This document shows positions 4,178-18,135 of a stretch of 64,000 bases of DNA, piece after piece. Position 1 is the first letter of the stretch. Every line of letters starts with the position of its first letter. The notes under the pieces are model-generated. The model worked only from the letters and a program-made list of their open reading frames with translations, did no database searches and was not told where the DNA came from. Source of the DNA: Ruminococcus sp. GTDB taxonomy: Bacteria > Bacillota > Clostridia > Oscillospirales > Ruminococcaceae. The stretch spans positions 372,001 to 436,000 of the forward strand of contig JAJBTZ010000090.1 of the NCBI GenBank assembly GCA_020860605.1, read 5' to 3'. Position numbers and translations under genes: made by a program.

Positions 4178-4206
4178 ATTATAGCACAATACTTCGCTCA
4201 CGTCAA
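4178..4206 (-). promoter_or_regulatory. Promoter of the two-TM protein gene
   Basis: TTGACG, 17-base spacer, TATAAT; the -35 overlaps the stop region of the upstream ABC gene. Confidence 0.7.
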
Positions 4207-6092
4207 TTATTTTGTAAGAGGTTTTCTTTTTCAAACTGCAACATGTAGAGCTCATAGTAGTGGCCCTTGAGCGCCAGGAGCTCTTCATGGGTTCCGCTTT
4301 CGAGAATTTCACCGTGAGAAAGATAGATTATCCTGTCGGCCTTTCTGATGGTAGAAAGCCTGTGGGCAACTATCAGAAGCGTGCCGATATTCATCATCTT
4401 CTCGAGAGAGTCCTGGATGAGGATTTCAGTCTCGGTGTCAATGTTGGCGGTTGCTTCGTCGAGAATCATGACTTCGGGCTTGTGGATAATGGTTCTTGCG
4501 AAAGAGAGAAGCTGGCGCTGGCCTGCAGAGAAGTTGTTGCCACGCTCCCTGACCTCTTCGTCGAGGCCCTTGTCAAGCTTTTCAATAATCTTGTCGGCGT
4601 TGACATAACGGCAGGCATCCATTATCTCTTCGTCAGTGAAGCTGTCCTCTCGTAAAACGATGTTGCTACGGATGGTTCCCGAGAAGAGGAAGACGTCCTG
4701 AAGCATCTGACCGAAGTGTTTGCGGAGGCTTGAGACGGTATAGTGTTTGATGTCAACGCCGTCGATGAGAATCTGGCCCTTCTGGATGTCGTAGTTACGG
4801 CAGATGAGGGAGAGTATTGTCGTCTTGCCGGAGCCTGTGGCTCCTACGAATGCGACCGTTTCGCCAGCGTTGACCTTGAAGGAAACATCCTTCAGAACCC
4901 ACTCACCCTCGTTATAGGCAAACCAAACATTCTTGAACTCAATATCGCCCTTGCAGGTCTCGAGGTCTATGGCGTCAGGCTCGTCCTGAATCTCAGGGAC
5001 CATGTCGAAGATGGTGAATATCTTCTCAGCGGAAGCAAATGCGGACTGGAGCCAGTTGAACTGCTCGGCAAGGTTCTGGATCGGGTTATAGAACTTCGAA
5101 ATGTACATGTAGAACGATACGATGGTACCACTCGTGATGGTCTGTCCTAAGAAAACGGTATCCTTTATGTATCCCCTGCCGCCTAAGTAGAAGAGGCAAA
5201 GGATTGACGAAACATAGAGCATATAGACGAGAGGACGGAAGACAGCGAATGTGAGTATCTGCTGGGTCTGAGCCTTCTCGAGCTTCTTGTTACGCTGCTG
5301 GAATTCGTCAAGCTTTCTGTCCTCACGGTTGAAGATCTGGATTATCTTCATGCCGGAGAGGTGTTCGGAGATGAAGGTGTTTATGTCGGTTGTACCGTCC
5401 TTGACACGTCTGTAGGCACGGCGGGAGAACTTTCTGAAAATAACGGTGAAAAGAAGTATAAACGGCACGAAGCAGAGAACCATCAACGTGAGCTGATAGT
5501 TGAGCATCAGCATCGCAACAAGAACTCCGATGATTACAAAGAAGTTCTTTATCAGGTTCACAAGGATGTTTGTGAACATGACTGAGATTGCGTTGGTGTC
5601 GTTTGTGACTCTGGTGACCAGCTTTCCTACCGGGATATTATTCAGCTGAGCATGGGAGAGGCTCTCGATATGCTTCATGAGGTCTTCACGGAAGGCTGAG
5701 AGGATCTTCTGGCCTATTTTCTGGAGGACAATTGCCTGAACATAGGTGCAGATCATCGAGATGATGAGGATGCTTGCGTATACTGCGATATAGGCGAAAA
5801 TCTCTTTCATCTCGAAGTCCCCGACAATCATGTCTTCGATATCGCCTATAATAAGTGGAGAAATGATGTCGTAGGCGACGGAGACGAGCATTACGAAGAG
5901 AACGAAGATGAATTGGCCGATATAGGGCTTCGCATACTTGAGAAGGCGCTTCAGAATCTCGCCATCGGACATGTTGCGGTCGAAGCCCATGGCTTCTTTA
6001 CGATCCTTGACAGAGAAATAGGCGACGATAAAGATGATTGAGACGACACCGACTACAGCACCGACAGCCAAAAGAGGATAATACTCATGCAT
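4203..6092 (-). CDS. ABC exporter half-transporter, canonical subunit (YheH-like)
   Basis: 629 residues from the ATG with AAAGGGGTG upstream. The start overlaps the stop of the preceding gene by 8 bases (ATGCATGA), indicating translational coupling. An extra N-terminal helix (residues 1-25) precedes a six-helix ABC_membrane domain (about 45-340). The nucleotide-binding domain carries Walker A GATGSGKTT, signature FSAGQRQL, Walker B VMILDEATANID with the catalytic Glu, and H-loop AHRLSTI. It pairs with the gene at 6085, whose Walker B is degenerate; together they match the heterodimeric YheI/YheH or TM287/288 class of multidrug or lipid exporters. The SAGQ signature is the slightly deviant one expected for the non-catalytic half of the composite site. 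Substrate unknown. Confidence 0.9.
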   Translation of the reverse strand: MHEYYPLLAVGAVVGVVSIIFIVAYFSVKDRKEAMGFDRNMSDGEILKRLLKYAKPYIGQFIFVLFVMLVSVAYDIISPLIIGDIEDMIVGDFEMKEIFAYIAVYASILIISMICTYVQAIVLQKIGQKILSAFREDLMKHIESLSHAQLNNIPVGKLVTRVTNDTNAISVMFTNILVNLIKNFFVIIGVLVAMLMLNYQLTLMVLCFVPFILLFTVIFRKFSRRAYRRVKDGTTDINTFISEHLSGMKIIQIFNREDRKLDEFQQRNKKLEKAQTQQILTFAVFRPLVYMLYVSSILCLFYLGGRGYIKDTVFLGQTITSGTIVSFYMYISKFYNPIQNLAEQFNWLQSAFASAEKIFTIFDMVPEIQDEPDAIDLETCKGDIEFKNVWFAYNEGEWVLKDVSFKVNAGETVAFVGATGSGKTTILSLICRNYDIQKGQILIDGVDIKHYTVSSLRKHFGQMLQDVFLFSGTIRSNIVLREDSFTDEEIMDACRYVNADKIIEKLDKGLDEEVRERGNNFSAGQRQLLSFARTIIHKPEVMILDEATANIDTETEILIQDSLEKMMNIGTLLIVAHRLSTIRKADRIIYLSHGEILESGTHEELLALKGHYYELYMLQFEKENLLQNN

Positions 6093-7869
6093 TGACGACA
6101 CCCCTTTCGCTTTCGAGACGCTGCAGATCAACTGTCAGCTTATACTGCGGACAGCTCTTGTAGAGCTCTTCGTGGTTTCCGACGGCTAAGATATTTCCAT
6201 CATCGATGAAGATTATCTTGTCCATATGCTCGATGGTGGTGACACGGTGAGCTATGAGAATTGTGGTCTTGCCCTCGCGGGATGTCTTGAGACCACCGAG
6301 AATCTCCTTCTCGGTCTCAATATCGACGGCTGAGACGGAGTCATCCAAGATAAGAATTGAAGCATCTTTCATAAGTGCTCTTGCAATCGAAATTCTCTGT
6401 TTCTGTCCGCCAGAGACGGTCACGCCTCTTTCGCCGAGAACCGTATCATAGCCTTCGGCAAATTCGACGATATTGTCGTCAACTGCGGAGAGTTTGGCAG
6501 CTTCAACAGCCTTTTCGTGGCTGACATCGTCTGTTGCAAATTCGATATTGTGCTCTATCGTGTCGCTGAAGAGGAAGTTGTCCTGTGGGACATAGGCGCA
6601 ATACTTTCTTAGAGAAGCAATTGAAATCGAATTGACGTCTTTTCCGTCGACGAAGATTTTGCCATCGGGGACGTTGTAAATCCTGAGTATCAGGTCGGCA
6701 AGAGTGGTCTTGCCTGCACCTGTACGGCCAATTACACCGACGCTTTCACCGGCGTTAATCTTGAAGGAGGCGTTCTTTAAGACGTCATACTCGCCATCAG
6801 GATAGCGGAAAGTGAGATTCTTAAACTCAATGTCACCCCTGACATTTTCAATATTGGTCACATCTTCTCTATCTTTTACATCAACCTCAGCGTCAAGAAG
6901 CTCACTGATTCTCTTGAGAGACGCTGCACCCTGAGAATGCATGTTGATGAGCTCGGCGACTGCCATTACAGGCCAGACGATCGAGTTGAAGTAGCCCATG
7001 AACTCGACGAGCTGTCCTGCGTTGAAGGTTCCCTTATAAACAAGGTAGCTTCCGTAGCCTAAGATAACACAGATAACGGATTCTACAAGCAGAGTTACGA
7101 AGATGGTCATGAGTGTTGAAAGGCGGGTGTATTCGACATTTGCGTCCTCATTCTCTTTGTTGAGCTTGCGGAAGGCAATGAGCTCTTTGCTCTCTTTTAC
7201 AAAAGCTTTGATAACTGCGATTCCTGAGAAGCTTTCCTGGGAGAAATCGGAGAGCTTCGAAAAAGCCTCCTGGCGGACTTCCCACTTCTTCTCCATGTAC
7301 TGCATGAGAGTTAATCCGACGCCGAAGAGAAGGGCTATAGGAATCATACAGAGAAGAGACATGAGAAGGTTCATGCGGAGCATCTTTATGAATGAGAGGA
7401 TGCCTAAGAAGGCTGCATCACAGGTCATTAAGATTCCGTTTGAATAGCAGTCGCGGATGGTTTCGAGGTCGTTTGTGAAGAGAGACATCAGGTTGCCGAC
7501 CTTGTTCTTCTGGTAGTACTGCTGGGAGAGGTCCTTGCAATGGTCGAACATGCGGTATCTCAGATCTGCTGCGACCTTGTTTCCGCTTCCGTTGAAGCAG
7601 ACGCGCCAGAGGAATCTGCCAGTGACTATTCCAACGATTATTCCTATCATTGGTAGGCAGACTTCGTCCAGAAGATAATCCATATCGAACGCTGCGGTTG
7701 TGCCGTCGTCGAGAGTGATGAAGCCATCGTTCAGGCCGTTGATGACGTTTCTATAGAGCTCCGGGATGATGAGCTGGAGATAGTCGACTAAGATCAGTGC
7801 TGCAATACCGATTATCAGAAGATAAGCGTACTTTATGTAGTAGCGATTTATGTGCTTTCCAAAAAGCAA
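6085..7869 (-). CDS. ABC exporter half-transporter, degenerate-site subunit (YheI-like)
   Basis: 594 residues starting at TTG, preceded by GGGGGGA at 5 bases; no ATG lies nearby in frame. ABC_membrane domain about residues 15-305, then a nucleotide-binding domain with Walker A GRTGAGKTT, signature VSGGQKQR and Walker B ILILDDSVSAVD. The residue after the Walker B Asp is Asp instead of the catalytic Glu, the hallmark of the degenerate site in heterodimeric exporters. First gene of a two-gene unit with 4203..6092, driven by the promoter at 7903-7931. It is expected to form a 1:1 heterodimer in the membrane with its neighbour; substrate unknown. Confidence 0.9.
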   Translation of the reverse strand: MLFGKHINRYYIKYAYLLIIGIAALILVDYLQLIIPELYRNVINGLNDGFITLDDGTTAAFDMDYLLDEVCLPMIGIIVGIVTGRFLWRVCFNGSGNKVAADLRYRMFDHCKDLSQQYYQKNKVGNLMSLFTNDLETIRDCYSNGILMTCDAAFLGILSFIKMLRMNLLMSLLCMIPIALLFGVGLTLMQYMEKKWEVRQEAFSKLSDFSQESFSGIAVIKAFVKESKELIAFRKLNKENEDANVEYTRLSTLMTIFVTLLVESVICVILGYGSYLVYKGTFNAGQLVEFMGYFNSIVWPVMAVAELINMHSQGAASLKRISELLDAEVDVKDREDVTNIENVRGDIEFKNLTFRYPDGEYDVLKNASFKINAGESVGVIGRTGAGKTTLADLILRIYNVPDGKIFVDGKDVNSISIASLRKYCAYVPQDNFLFSDTIEHNIEFATDDVSHEKAVEAAKLSAVDDNIVEFAEGYDTVLGERGVTVSGGQKQRISIARALMKDASILILDDSVSAVDIETEKEILGGLKTSREGKTTILIAHRVTTIEHMDKIIFIDDGNILAVGNHEELYKSCPQYKLTVDLQRLESERGVVNA

Positions 7870-7902
7870 TATAATCCCCCCAAATTACAAAATTCAAAGG
7901 CG

Positions 7903-7931
7903 ATTATAGCACATTGCATGGTTAAAATCAA
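7903..7931 (-). promoter_or_regulatory. Promoter of the heterodimeric ABC exporter
   Basis: TTGATT, 17-base spacer, TATAAT, about 34 bases before the TTG start. Confidence 0.7.
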
Positions 7932-7982
7932 GAGGCAATTTCGCTATATTGTATTTCACCGGAGGACAATTTTTTGACATGA

Positions 7983-8010
7983 AAACGCCTCTGAGTTTCC
8001 CCAGAGGCGC
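7983..8010 (-). terminator. Terminator of the second ABC pair
   Basis: On the minus strand CGCCTCTG and CAGAGGCG form a perfect stem followed by TTTT. It lies just after the stop at 8018, with a rather short T run. Confidence 0.65.
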
Positions 8011-8017
8011 TTAAGTA

Positions 8018-9895
8018 TTATTCTTCTTTCGTGTAATACTGGGCTTGAGTGTTCCAGAGCTCACTATACTTGCCATCAGTCTCGATAAGCTCATCATGGC
8101 TTCCCTTCTGGACGATGGAGCCATGGTCGAAGACGGCGATTTCGTCGCAGAAACGGCAGCTTGAGAGGCGATGGCTGATGTAGATGGCGGTCTTATCGCC
8201 AACTATTTCGTTGAACTTCGAGTAGATTTCGGCTTCCGCCATTGGGTCTAACGCTGCTGTCGGTTCGTCGAGGACTATGAAAGGTGAATCCTTGTAGAGT
8301 GCTCTTGCAAGTGCAATCTTCTGAGCCTCACCGCCGGAGACGTTTACGCCGTTCTGATCTACTTCGGTATAAAGAGTAGTTTCGAGACCAGAAGGAAGCT
8401 CCTTCAGCCTGTCGCCGAAGCCGGTTTTAACGAGGCAGTCGGTGGCTTTGTCGCCGTCATAGGTCATGCTCGAAGCGACGACCTCGCCCAATTTAAATGC
8501 TGGGAGCTTGAAGTCCTGAAAGACTACTGAGAAGATGTCGAGATATTCGCGGTAGTTGTACTTCTCGATATTGATGCCGTTGAGGAGGATTTCGCCCTCG
8601 GTCGGGTCATAGAGACGGCAAAGAAGCAGTATAAAAGTAGTCTTGCCGGAGCCGTTTTCACCGACAACTGCGAGTCGTTCACCTACTCTGAACTTTACGT
8701 TTACATGCCTTAAGGCATAGTTTTCACTTCCGGGATATTTGAAGGACACGTCTCGAAATTCTATCTCATAATCCCTGTCAAGTCTCTTTTCAACCGTCAG
8801 GGAACCCTTGTACATGCTGTGAGGGATGTCGAGGTATTCAAGGGACATTTCAAGGAACGGAGTGTTGGCTTTGAGCTGACCGAGTGTTGAGAGGGTTTGT
8901 GTGAGACCGCCTGAAACACTGGTGATTGCAGCGACATACTGGGTTACATATCCGATTCCGAATGCGCCACCGAGGGCTTTCAGGCAGACATAGACATAGG
9001 CAAGTCCTGAGAACATTGTCGCAATTCCGCTTCCGAGAGCGCTGAAGGCTCCCATTCCTCTTCGTGCAAAGTGAGCAAACATGCCATCGGACAGGAATAT
9101 CCCCGTTTTGTCGCAGTTGTATTTCTTACTCATCTTGTGCTGATTGTACATTCTCACGTCGAGAGAATACTTTTCTTCGGTTCCTAAGAATGCGTGGTAG
9201 GTGCCGAGTCTGTTGGCTAAGTTATGGTCGCCGACATTTTTCGACCAATAGCTTGAAGCTTTGTTGGAACACATCGGTGCTAAAAGTGTAACGCCGATCA
9301 TTACTGCAACTACAAGAATTATGCAGATAGGATTATTGAGAAACGCAAGTGATGAGCCATCGGGGACTCTTGTTGTAAAGAGAGTTACAGTCAGAGCAAC
9401 ACCGCCTATGATTGTGAAAACGCCTTTGATGAGGTCATCAACCCAACTGAGCAGGTACACAAGTCCCCAACCTCCGCTATTGACGTTCTGAGTGATATTT
9501 GAATAGGCATCCTTTGTCTTCTGGCTGTCGGCGTCGGCAAAATCCATATCGAGTTGCTTTTTGGTATAATTGCCCATTCCCCTGAAAAAGTTTGTCAAGC
9601 CGCCATAAGTATTTTTGTACTTGTTTAGGAATGCACTTATAAGTGCAACCGCTGCCGCCAGAGCAAGCGTTACCAGAACAAGCATTGTGAGACGGTCTCT
9701 GTCTCTGTTTCCAGAGAGCTCTGTTATGATGAGAGCCGACATATAGATTCCAATATAGGGACTAAGAGCAGTCCAGATAGAATTGGCTATTGTCGAGATT
9801 ACCATGTGGGGACTGTTTTTATAGAGAATCTTAAGACCCTGTATCGTCTTGGATGCCATCCGGCGATAGGTGATTTTGTCATTGTTCTTACTCAT
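8018..9895 (-). CDS. ABC half-transporter, type IV exporter fold
   Basis: 625 residues from an ATG with GGAGGGTG at 7 bases; it overlaps the preceding stop by 8 bases (ATGAGTAA). Transmembrane helices span about residues 30-310; the ATPase has Walker A GENGSGKTT, Q-loop VVFQDF, signature VSGGEAQK, Walker B IVLDEPTAALD and H-loop SHRLSS. All ATPase motifs look catalytic. Partner of 9888..11735. The pair sits directly downstream of a LytTR two-component system and behind candidate LytTR boxes, the usual arrangement for peptide or antimicrobial exporters under quorum or stress control. There is no C39 peptidase domain, so any exported peptide would need separate processing. Substrate unknown. 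Confidence 0.88.
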   Translation of the reverse strand: MSKNNDKITYRRMASKTIQGLKILYKNSPHMVISTIANSIWTALSPYIGIYMSALIITELSGNRDRDRLTMLVLVTLALAAAVALISAFLNKYKNTYGGLTNFFRGMGNYTKKQLDMDFADADSQKTKDAYSNITQNVNSGGWGLVYLLSWVDDLIKGVFTIIGGVALTVTLFTTRVPDGSSLAFLNNPICIILVVAVMIGVTLLAPMCSNKASSYWSKNVGDHNLANRLGTYHAFLGTEEKYSLDVRMYNQHKMSKKYNCDKTGIFLSDGMFAHFARRGMGAFSALGSGIATMFSGLAYVYVCLKALGGAFGIGYVTQYVAAITSVSGGLTQTLSTLGQLKANTPFLEMSLEYLDIPHSMYKGSLTVEKRLDRDYEIEFRDVSFKYPGSENYALRHVNVKFRVGERLAVVGENGSGKTTFILLLCRLYDPTEGEILLNGINIEKYNYREYLDIFSVVFQDFKLPAFKLGEVVASSMTYDGDKATDCLVKTGFGDRLKELPSGLETTLYTEVDQNGVNVSGGEAQKIALARALYKDSPFIVLDEPTAALDPMAEAEIYSKFNEIVGDKTAIYISHRLSSCRFCDEIAVFDHGSIVQKGSHDELIETDGKYSELWNTQAQYYTKEE

Positions 9896-11735
9896 TGATA
9901 TCACCCTCCCTGTAGTATTTGCTCTGAACTTCAAAGAGTTCTGCATATTTTCCGCCCTGTTTAAGCAACTGCTCGTGGGTTCCCTCTTCCAGTATCTTGT
10001 GGTCGCCTATCAGGATGATTCTGTCGCAGAATCGGGTCGAAGCGAGACGATGGGAGATATAGACGGAGGAGCGTCCCACGGTCATGTCGTTATACTTGTT
10101 ATAAAGGTCGGCTTCTGCAATCGGGTCGAGAGCTGCTGTCGGCTCGTCAAGGACGATTACGGGAGCGTCTTTATACAAGGCTCTTGCAAGCATCAGCTTC
10201 TGTGTCTGACCGCCCGAGAGGTTCACGGCGTCCTCATAGACTTCACGATTGAGCTTTTCCTCAAGACCGTCCTTGAAGCCTTTGACCATTTCAGTGAGTC
10301 CGGCTTTTTCGATGCAGGAATTAACCTTGTCATAGTCGATGTCGTGGTCGGTCTGGGCGACGTTTTCAGCGACCGAGCCCGCCCAGAGGACACAATTCTG
10401 GAATACTGCCGAGAAGACTTTGTAATATTCACGGCGATTGAATTCACGGATGTCAACGCCATTGAGGAGCACTCTCCCCTCTGTCGGGTCTTCCATGCCG
10501 GTGATGAGCTTGACGAGGGTCGTCTTTCCTGCGCCGTTAAGTCCCACCACAGCGAGCTTTTCGCCTGCATGTAGTGTTAAGTTGATGTCTTCAAGAGTGT
10601 AGCTGTCGGATGAAGGGTACTTGAACCAAACATGGTCAAGAACTATCTCGTACTTGCCGTCAGCGGGAACGGGGACATCGGAACCGTCTTCAAACTTGAA
10701 CTGTTCAGGGTAATTGAGAATTTCAATGACGTTTGATAATTCAAGGCACTGACGGTGCATTGTGGTGAGGTCTCCCAAAACTCCTGTTACCCAGTCGGTG
10801 AATCCGCCAACGGTTGAGAAGTAGAGGATGAACATTGAGACGTCGATTGAGCCGTCAAGAACAAGTGCTATGAAGTAGGCATAGGCTACAGCGTTTCTGA
10901 GAAAACTCAGAACAAGGTCGGCAACTCTGCCCCAGATATAGACGTTCTCGCACTTGCGATGGAAGGCTTCAAGGAGAAGGCACTGCTTGTCGTAAAGTTC
11001 AGTGAACCAGCTCTTGATGCCGAAGATTCGGACATCCTTTGCAAAGCTCGTTTCGGAGGCTGTTTTGCGGACGTAGCTCAAAGTCTCATCAATCTTCGCT
11101 TCTTCCTCACGGTGATTATAGCCGTAGCTGTTGAGCTTGTTCGTGACGAAATAGCCGACAAGAGCGGTCACCGTCACAAGAAGGAGAATCCAGACATTTG
11201 CCGTCGAAAGTATTGCGGCATAGATGATGAGTCCCAACAGATTACTCAGGAACGAGCAAATCGTTTTCCAGATAGCCTCGCAAGCCGAAGAGTTAGAGTA
11301 TGTGGTTGGCAAAGCCTTATTGAGAATCGTCTGGAACTTTTCGTTGCCCAGGTTCGGGTATGAGGTTTCGGCACACTTTGTGTTGATGAGGTTTATGATT
11401 TCCGAACGGGTTGTTATCCTGCCGTAGAGGATATTCGAGTCGATGTATTGCCTTGCCATAGCGAGGAAAACGAGAATCAGCGTGAAGCCGATTATCGTGA
11501 TGAGGAGCTCAGACACAGTTCCGTTTCGCTCAAGCACTGCAATTATCGAGGGCGAAATATAAAGTCCCGCTACGCTCTGACCTGTGACTACGATCGAGAA
11601 GAGGAGTCCTAAGATTACAACCTTTTTCTCGCCGTTAGTCCAAGCGCATTTAATCATGAACCAGACACAGCTTAAGATGCCGTACTTTGGTTTTTCTTTT
11701 ATTTTGTCTTTTGTCTTACCTTTGGTAATGGTCAT
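9888..11735 (-). CDS. ABC half-transporter, first gene of LytTR-linked pair
   Basis: 615 residues. I choose the ATG of MTITKGK, three codons inside the ORF-track GTG, because GAAAGGCGG lies about 8 bases upstream. The basic N-terminus precedes helices at about 35-310; the ATPase domain has Walker A GLNGAGKTT, Q-loop AVFQNC, signature LSGGQTQK, Walker B VIVLDEPTAALD and H-loop SHRLAS. It overlaps the next ABC gene by 8 bases, supporting a heterodimer. Transcription probably starts from the promoter at 11761-11823, which carries two perfect LytTR-type direct repeats. Both sites of the putative dimer look catalytically competent, unlike the pair at 4203-7869. Confidence 0.88.
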   Translation of the reverse strand: MTITKGKTKDKIKEKPKYGILSCVWFMIKCAWTNGEKKVVILGLLFSIVVTGQSVAGLYISPSIIAVLERNGTVSELLITIIGFTLILVFLAMARQYIDSNILYGRITTRSEIINLINTKCAETSYPNLGNEKFQTILNKALPTTYSNSSACEAIWKTICSFLSNLLGLIIYAAILSTANVWILLLVTVTALVGYFVTNKLNSYGYNHREEEAKIDETLSYVRKTASETSFAKDVRIFGIKSWFTELYDKQCLLLEAFHRKCENVYIWGRVADLVLSFLRNAVAYAYFIALVLDGSIDVSMFILYFSTVGGFTDWVTGVLGDLTTMHRQCLELSNVIEILNYPEQFKFEDGSDVPVPADGKYEIVLDHVWFKYPSSDSYTLEDINLTLHAGEKLAVVGLNGAGKTTLVKLITGMEDPTEGRVLLNGVDIREFNRREYYKVFSAVFQNCVLWAGSVAENVAQTDHDIDYDKVNSCIEKAGLTEMVKGFKDGLEEKLNREVYEDAVNLSGGQTQKLMLARALYKDAPVIVLDEPTAALDPIAEADLYNKYNDMTVGRSSVYISHRLASTRFCDRIILIGDHKILEEGTHEQLLKQGGKYAELFEVQSKYYREGDINE

Positions 11736-11760
11736 ATTCAGCACCGCCTTTCATGATTCT

Positions 11761-11823
11761 ATTATAGCGTAAAATTTTAAGAGCGCACGTTTTGGGGACG
11801 AAACGCTCTCTGTGGGGGACGAA
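11761..11823 (-). promoter_or_regulatory. LytTR-type tandem operator and activated promoter
   Basis: On the minus strand two identical 9-mers TTCGTCCCC (11815-11823 and 11794-11802) are separated by exactly 12 bases. TATAAT lies at 11761-11766. The 17-base-spaced -35 position reads CGTGCG, a non-consensus hexamer, and begins 4 bases after the proximal repeat. Two 9-bp direct repeats 12-13 bases apart just upstream of a poor -35 is the known layout of LytTR-activated promoters. The cognate regulator is probably 12494..13198. Confidence 0.7.
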
Positions 11824-11836
11824 TTGCAAATTTCAG

Positions 11837-12484
11837 CTATTGCGGGAGGAGAATTTCGGTCGAGAAAGCTCCGTCCTCGCTGTTGCGGGAGATGTAGCCA
11901 CCGTATTTCTTGACAAGAGAATCAATACGGGCAAGTCCTAAGCCATGGCCTTCGCCCTTGGTAGTGTCGAAAATAGTCCGCTTCTTGTCGGCGGTGAAGT
12001 TGGTGAAAGAGATGTAGAACTGGCTGTCGCGGACTGCCATGTAGACTCGGATCATACGCTTGTCTTCAGAAAGCTTCTTTGATGCCTCGATGGCGTTGTC
12101 GAAGAGATTGCCAATGATTGAGCAGAGGTCGATATCGGAGACTGTGAGCTTCACAGGGATATCGGCATCGGCTTTGACGGGAATATTGGCTGCCTCGGCG
12201 AGAGAAATCTTGCTGTTTAAGATAGCATCACACATTGCGTTGCCGGAATGGATTACGGTGTCGACGGTGTTCAAATCCGTTTCGAGCTCATTGAGGTAGG
12301 CCATGACGGAATCCATGTCGCCAGACTGGACACGGGTTTTGAGAACTTGAATGTGGTTGCGATAGTCGTGGCGCCAGCCACGGATTTGCCTATACATGTT
12401 CTCGACCTCGGCATAGTGAGTCTTGAGGAGCTCCTGCTGGTAGGTGTCTATCTTCTTGTTCATCTTCTTTGAAAGCTTCGGCAT
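11837..12484 (-). CDS. Soluble GHKL sensor histidine kinase without sensor domain
   Basis: 215 residues. A helical region with the phospho-acceptor motif RHDYRNHI (His about residue 39) precedes a GHKL ATPase domain with N-box NLFDNAIEAS and G-box EGHGLGLARI. This matches the C-terminal half of AgrC/LytS-type kinases of LytTR systems. There are no membrane helices, and the upstream neighbour is the response regulator, so the usual multi-helix sensor is absent rather than split off. GGAAGGAG lies 11-14 bases ahead of the ATG, 9 bases after the regulator stop. It presumably phosphorylates 12494..13198; its input could come from another protein, possibly the adjacent ABC transporters, which is inference. 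Confidence 0.88.
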   Translation of the reverse strand: MPKLSKKMNKKIDTYQQELLKTHYAEVENMYRQIRGWRHDYRNHIQVLKTRVQSGDMDSVMAYLNELETDLNTVDTVIHSGNAMCDAILNSKISLAEAANIPVKADADIPVKLTVSDIDLCSIIGNLFDNAIEASKKLSEDKRMIRVYMAVRDSQFYISFTNFTADKKRTIFDTTKGEGHGLGLARIDSLVKKYGGYISRNSEDGAFSTEILLPQ

Positions 12485-12493
12485 CGATAGTGT

Positions 12494-13198
12494 TCACTCC
12501 TTCCCTACTCTATGGATGATTGCACGGTTCAGTGGCTCATATTGGCCACGAGGCAGTGGGATTACAATATCGCCTTTGAGATAAATTTCGGTTTTAGTGA
12601 CTTTTCGGACGTACCTAAGATTTACTATATAGGAACGGCCGGTGCGGTAGAAATTCTCATCCAAAAGAGATTCGAACTCACCGAGGGTTTTCTTGACCGT
12701 ATAGTCTTCACCAGCATGAACGGTGACGTAGTTTTTGATGACTTCGAGATATTTTATGTCTACGAGAGGGATTTTGACGATCTCGTCTGTAAGCTCAAGA
12801 GTGAGCATCCGCTCGCTTCGGGCGATTCGGACTATGGCTTTGTCGAGGACCTCGAAAAACTTCTTTTCGTTCAGGGGTTTCATAAGGTAGTTGAGGGCAT
12901 CGACATCGTAGCCATCGGCGATATAGTCGGAATACCCGGTGATAAAGACAATCTGGACATAACGATTTTCTTCACGGAGCTTTTTGGCGAGGCTGACCCC
13001 GTCCATGCCTCCCATTTCTATGTCCAAAAGGAGAATATCGTAGTCACGGGTCTCGGAATATGAGAACAGGAACGCCTCGGCAGAATCGAAGACATTTATT
13101 TCAGTTGTCAGGTCTCTGGCGATTGCCCATTTCTGGGTGAGTTCATGAACAAGATTTGTCATATCCTGAGAATCGTCGCAGATGGCGAGCTTATACAT
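12494..13198 (-). CDS. LytTR-family response regulator
   Basis: 234 residues from MYKLAICDD, with AGAGGAGG 7 bases upstream; the longer ORF-track start lies upstream of the promoter and is not used. Receiver domain residues 1-120 with acidic pocket DD and phospho-acceptor Asp in LLLDIEMGG. A C-terminal LytTR DNA-binding domain (about 130-232) shows KYLEVIKNYVTVH and GRSYIVNLRYV. It is first in a two-gene unit with the kinase. LytTR proteins bind paired 9-bp direct repeats, and such a pair occurs 672 bases downstream, before the ABC genes. Confidence 0.92.
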   Translation of the reverse strand: MYKLAICDDSQDMTNLVHELTQKWAIARDLTTEINVFDSAEAFLFSYSETRDYDILLLDIEMGGMDGVSLAKKLREENRYVQIVFITGYSDYIADGYDVDALNYLMKPLNEKKFFEVLDKAIVRIARSERMLTLELTDEIVKIPLVDIKYLEVIKNYVTVHAGEDYTVKKTLGEFESLLDENFYRTGRSYIVNLRYVRKVTKTEIYLKGDIVIPLPRGQYEPLNRAIIHRVGKE

Positions 13199-13229: not shown

Positions 13230-13258
13230 ATTTTATAACACTCAGGCTTAAAAGTCAA
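13230..13258 (-). promoter_or_regulatory. Promoter of the LytTR two-component operon
   Basis: TTGACT, 17-base spacer, TAAAAT; an alternative TATAAA lies 2 bases closer. Confidence 0.65.
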
Positions 13259-15240: not shown

Positions 15241-16191
15241 TTACGGTTTTCTATGGCCGTCATACTTCTTTTTTCTCGGGAGAGAGACGATTATGAAGAG
15301 GATGATTACCATTGGGATGGCGACGCAGACGGAGACGAGGATTGTGTCGATCTTGTAGGCTTCGGCGGTGACTTTTATCGTCTTTTTCGCCGCCTCGGTC
15401 TCGATTCGGTGGCCTCGGACCATCAGGCGCTGGGTGTTGATGCCGTAGGGGGTGCAGGTCATCAGCGTCACGTAGTCCTGGCCGTCCTCGATATAGATCG
15501 TCTCGAGCTCGTTCGGGTAGATTATCGAAATCTGGTCGACCTCGTACGTGAGAACCTCGTTTAAGATCGTTATCGTGAAGGTGTCGCCCACCTCCATCTG
15601 ATCCAAATGTGTGAAAAGGGTTGCCGAAGGGAGGCCACGGTGAGCGGAGATAACCGCATGGGTGCTCTCTCCGCCGACGGGCAGGCTCGTCCCCTCCAGA
15701 TGTCCCGCAGCGATCTGCAGGACGCTTGCGGAGGTGCCGTGATAGATGGGGAGCTCCACGCCGATTTTCTCAATCGTTATGTAGCCCATAACGCCAGTTC
15801 CAGAAACGTTCAGGATATTCGAATACCCTTCAATCAGTCCGGGATTCGAGATAGAAGTCGCGGAACCGAGCTTCGCGATGGCCTCGTTATAGGCATAGGC
15901 TGCCTCGAAATACTCAGAGTAATCCGCCTCTGACATCGACGACACCGCCTCATCATAGCTCGCCATCGCCCTCGACTGCACCCGGGAGTTCCACCAGTTC
16001 GAAAACGACGGGTAAATCACAATCGCGAGACCCAGCAGGAGGACAAGAGTGAGCCCAAAAGTAGCCCAAGACCTCTTCCCCTCCGCCTTCCGTTCCTTCC
16101 TTCTTCTCTCCCTCTCCTTCCGTTTCCGATTCCTAACCTCGTCAACCGTCATCACCTTAGGAGTGAAATCTTTTTCGTTATTACCTTCCAC
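15241..16191 (-). CDS. Class C (pilus-type) sortase, locus A
   Basis: 316 residues from a GTG with AAGGAG 9 bases upstream. A very basic N-terminal cytoplasmic segment (KRKERERRRKERK) precedes a membrane helix at about 42-62. The sortase barrel follows with catalytic His184 (SAHRGLP), Cys246 (TLMTCTPYG) and Arg in RLMVRGHR. A second helix near 280-302 and a basic tail fit class C enzymes, which polymerise pilins. I see no clear DPW/DPF lid motif in the region before residue 130. It lies immediately downstream of the MPETG pilin and giant LPSTG adhesin, its likely substrates. The paralogue at 58298 shares long identical stretches, including the catalytic loops. Confidence 0.93.
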   Translation of the reverse strand: MEGNNEKDFTPKVMTVDEVRNRKRKERERRRKERKAEGKRSWATFGLTLVLLLGLAIVIYPSFSNWWNSRVQSRAMASYDEAVSSMSEADYSEYFEAAYAYNEAIAKLGSATSISNPGLIEGYSNILNVSGTGVMGYITIEKIGVELPIYHGTSASVLQIAAGHLEGTSLPVGGESTHAVISAHRGLPSATLFTHLDQMEVGDTFTITILNEVLTYEVDQISIIYPNELETIYIEDGQDYVTLMTCTPYGINTQRLMVRGHRIETEAAKKTIKVTAEAYKIDTILVSVCVAIPMVIILFIIVSLPRKKKYDGHRKP

Positions 16192-16230
16192 AAGAAATCA
16201 CTCCTTAAGGATACATGTTGCCAACCGCAA

Positions 16231-16363
16231 AGGCGCTCCCTTCGGCGCCAGCTCCCCAGTGAACCCTCTCAGGCAGCTGCTTCGCAGCTGCCAGCTCCCC
16301 CGGAGGGGGAGCCAAGACTTGCCTCTCCCTCCGGGAGAGGTGGCGCGAAGCGCCGGAGAGGGT
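16231..16363. repeat. Foldback (REP/MITE-like) repeat between pilin and sortase
   Basis: A chain of perfect short hairpins: GGCAGCTGC-TTC-GCAGCTGCC, GCTCCCCC-GGA-GGGGGAGC, CCTCTCCC-TCC-GGGAGAGG and GGCGC-GAA-GCGCC. They are enclosed by ACCCTCTC and GAGAGGGT. Related elements lie at 18171-18357 and near 59200. Confidence 0.8.
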
Positions 16364-16365
16364 CC

Positions 16366-18135
16366 TTACTCGTCCTTATTTCCAAGTCTCTTCTTAGTAA
16401 TCAACAGCACAACCGCGCCAACTACCAATATGCCACCGACGACGTAGAAGATAGTGGTACCAATGCCACCGGTTTCAGGCATCTCAGAACCAGAGTTATT
16501 CTGAATAGGAACAGCGGTCTGAGCAACTGAAATTCCAGAAATCGTTGTAGTATTAGGATCTTCTCCGTTAACAGAAACGTAACCCTGGGTAGTAGTCTGA
16601 TTATCAGAACCTGCTATAACGAATGAAACATTCGATGCCAACTTGTTATATCCAGCAGGAGCTGCAGTTTCGTGGATTTGGTAAGTAGTTTCAGCATCTA
16701 AGCCAGAGATGTTGAGAATACCAGTGCTATCTGTTATCAAGGTGTAGTAAGTAGGATCACTATTTGCTTCAAGGTTATCATCACCACTGTATGCAACCCA
16801 TTCATCAAATCTATAAACACCATTTTCCAAGATGAACTTAGCATAGTTATTGCCAGTCGAATCCAAGATAATGAAGCTTGCACCAGAAAGTACTTCAGGA
16901 GAGCCTGATAATGTACCGGTGTACTTGTAGACATTCAGAGAGTATACGTAGGTATTGGTTGTAGACATTAGAGACCAAGAATTATTACCATAAGATACGC
17001 GGGTATCGTTGTCGTTGCTGCCTGTCTGATTCTCTACATCATAGATTACAGCATTCTCATTAACAGTTGCTGAGTATTTGACAACGATAAAAGCAGTTCT
17101 AGTAAGACCAGTTACGTCCGAATAGTCAAACGTCATACTGAAGTCGCCAAGGAGGTAGTATGTTTCAGTAGGGTCATATGTACCAGTGGTGACTTGAGTA
17201 TATTGAGGAGTGTTACCAGCATCGTAAGTATACAATGTACCATCAGTAGTAAATGTGGTAGCATCTACATCAACTACAAAGTAAACATCAGCGGTATTTA
17301 CAGCGTATGTGCCGGTACCAGTGCCTAAAGTTAATGCTGTTCCAGTGGTATCACTATCACTTAAGTACAATGTAACTGAATCAATCTGGCTATAATCCAA
17401 TCCTGCATCCATCGAGTCGTAAAGAACGAGGTTGCTTACGCCATAGATATTGTCGATTACAGTCTGGAAGTAAACAGTATCACCAATCTCAGCATCAGAA
17501 TCGGTGTCATCAGTGGTGCTTGTATAAGTCGAATCATCGTAGACAGTCTTTTCAGTCGTCGGCTCTAAGTTCTTGTCGTAGATTTCAATATTTGTAGTGT
17601 CGAGCATTACTATGGTACCAACGGTTGTAGAAATGTAGTAATAACCAGCATCGAGGTCTGTCATCTCAGCTACACCATTAGCATCTGCAACATCGGAAGC
17701 AGTCGCTGATATTCCTGGTGCTGTCGTAATTGCAGTCTCAACAATTGAAGTCAAAAGGTCAAGGAAAGCTTGTTTATATTCAGCATCAGAATTGTAACCA
17801 GGAGTTGCATAGTCCACATAATCTTTAAACTGAACAGTATAAACAGTGGGATCCGTAGTAGCAGTTAAAGTGATGAAGTTTGCGAGAGCACCTGAACCAC
17901 TATCATATGCCGAGTTAATGGCGCTCCAGAAATCACCTTCAGTGCTTATGCTGTACGAATAATGACCGTTACCATCATCAGTTGCATCAAAAATCTTCCA
18001 AGCACTATACGTTTCGCCTTCTACAGCGCTAGTAATGGTAATCGAGGCTGTTCCTACCGCCTGCACCACTACCGCCAAGCTCATCATCATCGTCACCGCG
18101 AGTAAAATCGCGAGAAGTTTGTTTAATCTTTTCAT
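16366..18135 (-). CDS. Fimbrial major-subunit-like pilin with MPETG sorting signal
   Basis: 589 residues. Signal peptide (LLAILLAVTMMMSLAVVVQA) cleaves near residue 27. Domains fit isopeptide-forming fimbrial proteins: an N-terminal domain to about 190, a middle SpaA/isopeptide domain (about 190-400) and a C-terminal Cna_B domain. A textbook E-box YQIHETAAPAGYNKL carries the Glu that catalyses the intramolecular Lys-Asn bond. The tail has MPETGGIG, a hydrophobic helix and KKRLGNKDE. Start ATG follows AAGGAG. It is the probable backbone of a pilus built by the adjacent sortase. The usual YPKN-type pilin Lys motif is not obvious; DKNLEPTTEK is a possible stand-in. Foldback repeats bracket the gene. 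Confidence 0.9.
   Translation of the reverse strand: MKRLNKLLAILLAVTMMMSLAVVVQAVGTASITITSAVEGETYSAWKIFDATDDGNGHYSYSISTEGDFWSAINSAYDSGSGALANFITLTATTDPTVYTVQFKDYVDYATPGYNSDAEYKQAFLDLLTSIVETAITTAPGISATASDVADANGVAEMTDLDAGYYYISTTVGTIVMLDTTNIEIYDKNLEPTTEKTVYDDSTYTSTTDDTDSDAEIGDTVYFQTVIDNIYGVSNLVLYDSMDAGLDYSQIDSVTLYLSDSDTTGTALTLGTGTGTYAVNTADVYFVVDVDATTFTTDGTLYTYDAGNTPQYTQVTTGTYDPTETYYLLGDFSMTFDYSDVTGLTRTAFIVVKYSATVNENAVIYDVENQTGSNDNDTRVSYGNNSWSLMSTTNTYVYSLNVYKYTGTLSGSPEVLSGASFIILDSTGNNYAKFILENGVYRFDEWVAYSGDDNLEANSDPTYYTLITDSTGILNISGLDAETTYQIHETAAPAGYNKLASNVSFVIAGSDNQTTTQGYVSVNGEDPNTTTISGISVAQTAVPIQNNSGSEMPETGGIGTTIFYVVGGILVVGAVVLLITKKRLGNKDE

Follow-up and report, generated by a model that had tools for sequence, protein, structure and literature searches.

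The window analysed here, a 64-kb stretch of DNA, carries a pair of direct repeats in front of an ABC exporter operon, and in all likelihood this site is the operator-promoter of that operon, run by the two-component system encoded directly upstream, with a hairpin in the same DNA that probably ends the regulator-kinase transcript. The gene order on the minus strand is tsf, a terminator, a promoter-like sequence, a receiver-LytTR regulator, a GHKL kinase, the operator site, and two ABC half-exporters (Table 1). This bears out the preliminary description of the DNA, which had placed a LytTR regulator and a kinase directly upstream and an ABC exporter downstream of the repeats, the exporter being a pair of half-exporters. 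Judging from the sequence, the switch is very probably read by the adjacently encoded response regulator. We propose that the LytTR response regulator receives its phosphate from the membrane-free GHKL kinase. As a dimer it would bind the two 13-bp half-sites on one face of the DNA (21 bp corresponds to two turns) and bring RNA polymerase to a promoter that has a -10 element and no -35. The hairpin would probably end the regulator-kinase transcript just past the kinase stop codon, so that the exporter would not be expressed by read-through.

Table 1. Features of the regulator-kinase-exporter region (positions in the window)
Feature	Position	Strand	Basis or remark
Terminator after tsf	13297-13267	-	terminator scan
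Promoter-like TTGACT-17-TAAAAT of the regulator-kinase genes, no operator	13230..13258	-	sequence
LytTR response regulator (receiver + LytTR; FYRTGRS variant of FhRhHRS)	12494..13198	-	domain profile matches
Soluble GHKL/SPOB_a-type histidine kinase, 215 aa, no membrane segment	11837..12484	-	domain match, hydropathy
Half-site 1, GCAATTCGTCCCC	11815..11827	-	LytTR 9-mer GCAATTCGT at 11819-11827
Half-site 2, GCGTTTCGTCCCC	11794..11806	-	LytTR 9-mer GCGTTTCGT at 11798-11806
Terminator-like hairpin; half-site 2 lies between and partly within the arms; UUAAAAUUUU comes next	11779..11810	-	-13.3 kcal/mol, z -4.68
-35 position, CGTGCG, non-consensus	11784..11789	-	17 bp from the -10
Predicted -10 element TATAAT of the exporter promoter	11761..11766	-	relatives keep it 27-29 nt downstream of half-site 2
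First half-transporter of the ABC exporter; ATG at 11735 is the likely start	9888..11744	-	domain match
Second half-transporter of the ABC exporter	8018..9946	-	domain match

The 9-mer TTCGTCCCC occurs exactly twice in the window, at 11794-11802 and 11815-11823, both on the minus strand (shuffled sequences gave a mean of 0.29), and the resulting TTCGTCCCC-N12-TTCGTCCCC spans 11794-11823 with a period of 21 bp. The layout given previously, two copies 12 bases apart that end 4 bases before a non-consensus -35 followed by a perfect TATAAT, is correct: AAAA (11793-11790) separates the second copy from CGTGCG, and a 17-bp spacer leads to TATAAT at 11766-11761. The site begins 9 bp past the kinase stop codon. 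The repeat extends 4 bases further upstream (GCAA/GCGT), so that the conserved unit is the 13-mer RCRATTCRTCMCC, and the start of this unit, RCRATTCRT, sets the LytTR 9-mers as GCAATTCGT and GCGTTTCGT, 12 bp apart. LytTR sites consist of repeats of 9-11 nt, 11-13 nt apart, with no common consensus (PMC4847170), and in the LRS operons of S. mutans the LytTR repeats lie 4-11 bp before the -35 (PMC6193735). GCAATTCGT-N12-GCGTTTCGT has the spacing of such a direct repeat, and in the correct register the 9-mers end 8 bp before the -35 (CCCC plus AAAA), a distance within the range of about 4-11 bp. The preliminary description had also stated that the 9-mer differs from the best-known consensus. The 9-mer had, however, been read 4 bases out of register and is less divergent than it appeared: against what we take to be a generic LytTR consensus, GCAATTCGT/GCGTTTCGT-N12 agrees at 7/9 and 6/9 positions, and the core of the E. 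coli YpdB operator fits the core of the present family at 8/9. The apparent divergence would thus be largely a register shift plus the conserved CCCC suffix. This suffix and the overlapping terminator-like hairpin are the unusual features of the operator.

The proposed scan of the whole genome for TTCGTCCCC-N12-TTCGTCCCC found a single pair with no random extra occurrences, and the reversed-pattern control gave 0; the extended motif still found a single site genome-wide with 3 mismatches permitted. No autoregulatory operator for the regulator-kinase operon was found upstream of it or elsewhere in the genome at the same tolerance. The absence of a second site genome-wide, together with the operon's own promoter-like sequence, led us to reject autoregulation.

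The regulator matched the profiles PF04397 (LytTR, E 1.5e-17) and PF00072 (receiver, E 5.6e-17). It has FYRTGRS in place of the FhRhHRS signature, with the remaining signature residues present, and in relatives carrying the CCCC operator the His of FhRhHRS is replaced by Gly or, rarely, Ser. The assignment of the LytTR domain stands on the profile match, and FYRTGRS is a variant of the signature. The kinase shows a highest 19-residue hydropathy of 1.14 and no membrane segment, and its longest possible frame opens directly with the region preceding the conserved RGWRHDYRNH box. The lack of a membrane part raises the question of the sensed signal. In Bce-type systems, the exporter has been proposed as the sensor; by analogy, our guess is that the exporter of this module may itself be the sensor. 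As for its substrate, the family models gave generic ABC exporter matches only, and among those listed none was above the curated cut-off. A second ABC exporter pair (MsbA/Smd-like) follows the second half-exporter in the same direction at 4203-7869. It occupies the same position in a close relative (L033) and was not seen downstream of the second half-exporter in more distant loci; membership of the regulated operon is possible. Elsewhere in the window, beside rpsB, there is apparently a pilus or fibre locus (15241-18135). As judged from the translation alone, it comprises a sortase-like gene and the gene of a long surface protein with an MPETG-type sorting motif at its end.

Conservation was examined in the best 80 of at least 582 relatives found via the kinase alone in named genomes. 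Being the closest in kinase similarity, these 80 loci are not independent; their records include Oscillospiraceae, Lachnospiraceae, Gemmiger, Faecalibacterium, Roseburia, Butyrivibrio, Erysipelotrichaceae, Peptoniphilaceae, Gorillibacterium, and others. Two copies of RCRATTCRTCMCC were present in 74 of these best 80 of at least 582 loci, with a spacing of exactly 21 bp in 74/74. The pair was found in every locus with the exporter (74/74) and in none of the six without an adjacent first half-exporter gene (0/6). This rigid layout is shared by many Clostridia of the gut and their relatives. Most positions of the half-site carry 1.7-2 bits of information, and position 8 (G/A) carries 1.0-1.2. TTCGTCCC pairs were detected in 20/99 relatives and 3/63 genera, and nearly all of those in relatives sit between the kinase and the first ABC gene. 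Among 297 order-level genomes, the strict site occurred in 18 and the kinase in 46, and all 18 were within the 46 (Fisher 9e-17, ignoring relatedness).

The promoter is conserved in a similar manner. In most loci, half-site 2 is followed after 27-29 nt by a -10, which typically has the extended form TGnTAnnnT, and most of the apparent '23'-nt cases have a second -10 at about 28, as judged by eye. No -35 consensus was visible in the promoters of the relatives. A -10 at a fixed distance combined with no -35 consensus is the form of an activator-dependent promoter. The architecture of a LytTR-activated promoter, as it had been interpreted from the window, is consistent with the geometry, the position, the one-per-genome occurrence, and the strict co-occurrence with the regulator-kinase-exporter module. 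In loci with up to 1.4 kb of other sequence between kinase and exporter, the site is usually found beside the exporter, with L064 and L128 as exceptions. In genome G010, the ABC pair has the site in front of it on a contig that carries neither regulator nor kinase; these two are encoded on another contig, where no site was seen up to 1.5 kb from them. The fact that the site travels with the exporter when the genes separate indicates that the operator belongs to the exporter.

Several loci showed other arrangements. In L064, two identical 34-bp operators (6601 and 8722), separated from each other by 2.1 kb, lie between kinase and exporter, which looks like the insertion of a cassette with duplication of the operator region. 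L096 and L099 encode a kinase of the same family with the regulator downstream of it, and have no exporter and no operator nearby. L024 (genome G043) contains three TTCGTCCC-N13-TTCGTCCC pairs within 5.4 kb (7401-12852), inside duplicated sequence of 180-300 bp, one of them just upstream of a paralogous lipoprotein gene array. These pairs may be an unrelated repeat, since G043 is without the kinase of the module (best match 3e-15).

A predicted terminator-like hairpin overlaps the operator in most loci. For its prediction, the stretch folded ran from the inter-repeat spacer to a point 22 nt beyond half-site 2, and the downstream part was shuffled for comparison. A simple terminator scan of the window did not call the hairpin at 11779..11810. 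In the 74 loci with the pair (of the best 80 of at least 582), the mean z was -3.6 and z was below -2 in 59/74; at least four U followed within the next 8 nt in 64/74. The usual hairpin uses half-site 2 as its 5' arm (TTCGTCCCC...GGGGACGAA-TTTTT). About a dozen loci and the window differ in that half-site 2 lies between the arms or is partly contained in them; an example is GATCCGTGCA...TGCACGGATC in L078. Position 8 of half-site 2 (G/A) covaries with the opposing C/T (34/6/3/9, p 2e-4, ignoring phylogeny). Among the more distant paralogues described below, the hairpin is built around both half-sites in those with the suffix ATCA and lies between the two half-site regions in those of the GCAC class (33 loci, mean z -2.9). 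The same hairpin-then-U arrangement rebuilt from different bases argues for selection on RNA structure, and the operator appears, from these predicted folds, to be fused to the terminator of the regulator-kinase transcript. The following observations, together with the negative result of the simple terminator scan, count against the terminator part of this reading. About ten of the 74 loci (for example L088, L095, L110, and L125) have no convincing hairpin, so that the terminator would not be indispensable, and the U-tract UUAAAAUUUU of the window is interrupted by AAAA, so that termination there may be weak.

More distant kinases in the same genomes belong to modules that share the gene order, the core, and the 21-bp period and carry the suffixes GCAC/GTAC/GCGC, ATCA, TCAC, or GCCA. 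The suffix was associated with the LytTR residue at the position of AgrA H200: Gly (34) or Ser (1) with CCCC; His (17), Gln (2), Thr (1), or Cys (1) with the GCAC group; His (6) with ATCA; Gly/Ser with GCCA; and Gln with TCAC, the counts being approximate as the classes were assigned by rules plus a few hand-set cases. The association is strong when phylogeny is ignored (Fisher 6e-11). On a kinase tree of 91 modules, only two changes between small and large residues occur, and the operator follows in about 1.9 of the 2, which is too few for a test; the His/ATCA group nests inside the Gly/CCCC group, one apparent joint reversal. The earlier suggestion that the repeat defines the specificity of the regulator is plausible in that suffix and LytTR residue shift together between paralogous modules, but such a suffix-residue code draws on only two independent changes. 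Many genomes show differing suffixes among their paralogues, but insulation of the paralogues by this means was rejected: with class labels shuffled, the 12/45 same-class pairs, most of which come from one genome with 7% contamination, did not differ significantly from the mean of 13.5 (P 0.40). Seven kinase copies (L184, L190, L193, L204, L209, L210, and L213) were found in G107 (7% contamination), most of them beside an exporter and with several operator suffixes; this genome would be useful for a study of orthogonality if the assembly is clean.

The hairpin lends itself to other explanations. An RNA attenuator in the regulator-kinase transcript, in which the hairpin would set read-through into an exporter without its own promoter, would agree with a conserved hairpin and U-tract directly after the kinase gene. 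However, it leaves half-site 1, which is usually outside the hairpin, and the invariant 21-bp period unexplained; the -10 at a fixed distance and the association of the site with the exporter when kinase and exporter separate also speak against it, and no alternative antiterminator pairing is evident. We consider an attenuator improbable. The downstream G-rich arm could also be a third, inverted protein site instead of an RNA hairpin arm, as suggested by the many loci in which the arm, GGGGACGAA, is the half-site exactly inverted. The window clade and about a dozen other loci, however, have an arm unrelated to the half-site and form the hairpin with other bases, and paralogues with other suffixes use still other pairings. 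An inverted third half-site was rejected as not general, and we regard it as very improbable.

The repeats themselves might be bound by a DNA-binding protein other than the neighbouring LytTR regulator. H200 of AgrA has been implicated in DNA binding (PMC4227749), and the corresponding His of the LytTR motif is Gly in the regulators of the module; this counts against our reading, in which binding by the regulator is predicted, and it favours another protein. On the other hand, every strict site in the order sample lies in a genome with the kinase of the module, the geometry is that of a LytTR site, the core resembles the YpdB operator, and suffix and LytTR residue appear to shift together between paralogous modules. 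Binding by another protein is, in our judgement, quite unlikely. A chance or dispersed repeat has in its favour the shortness of the 9-mer and nothing else; it was rejected by the window, genome, and mismatch scans, with one pair per genome and no control match, and the fixed spacing is kept in all 74 exporter-bearing loci of the best 80 of at least 582. We take its probability to be practically negligible.

An operator-promoter run by the adjacent two-component system, our preferred reading, gives a sequence definition of the operator for a module in hundreds of Clostridia and relatives, so that its targets become predictable by pattern. If the terminator fusion is true, selection has fitted both insulation and activation into a stretch of about 70 bp. 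Paralogous modules with differing suffixes would form a natural series on the DNA choice of LytTR domains, useful because LytTR sites are said to share a geometry and no common consensus (PMC4847170). We tentatively raise the possibility that these loci belong to a large undescribed family of self-contained export modules in Clostridia and relatives, consisting of a LytTR regulator, a membrane-free kinase, and an ABC heterodimer, in which one piece of DNA acts as operator and promoter and also terminates the transcript of the regulator upstream; its geometry would be a rigid 21 bp, and an exchangeable 4-bp suffix (CCCC, GCAC, ATCA, TCAC, or GCCA), recognised through the residue that corresponds to AgrA H200, would set the specificity of each paralogous module. 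LytTR geometry and the LytTR domain are already known. Our literature search yielded nothing on this regulator-kinase-exporter module, on a LytTR operator-terminator fusion, or on the CCCC half-site family, the suffix series, and the Gly variant of the LytTR motif; subscription papers were mostly outside its scope, so that absence is weak evidence. For the repeat as a string, the papers listed were only ones seemingly unrelated by title.

The closest operator known to us is that of E. coli YpdB (PyrR), given as GGCATTTCAT-N11-GGCATTTCAT in PMC4847170 and confirmed by us upstream of yhjX in the K-12 genome. Its period is also 21 bp, and it shares 8/9 of the core RCRATTCRT and a CC at the same offset (GGCATTTCATTCC/GGCATTTCATGCC), whereas the suffix differs from the CCCC of the module. 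The YpdB protein is 26% identical to the regulator of the module and has HRS where the latter has GRS. The transporter gene that it targets lies elsewhere in the genome, whereas the exporter of the module adjoins the regulator-kinase pair, and a terminator fusion is unmentioned in the available part of the YpdB description (PMC4847170). The LRS of S. mutans and relatives (HdrRM/BrsRM; PMC6193735) share direct 9-bp repeats, mostly 12 bp apart and just before the -35, that activate the promoter, as is predicted here. Unlike the present system, they control their own operon of regulator and membrane inhibitor; here a soluble GHKL kinase takes the place of the inhibitor, and the sole operator follows the regulator-kinase pair. 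Systems of the S. aureus AgrA and C. perfringens VirR type have in common with the module the LytTR domain and two direct repeats, bound by a dimer in those systems, upstream of a suboptimal promoter (PMC4227749). They differ in the half-site sequences, in the motif (FFRCHNS in AgrA and FxRxGRS in the regulators of the module), and in the kinase, which in the module is without a membrane part.
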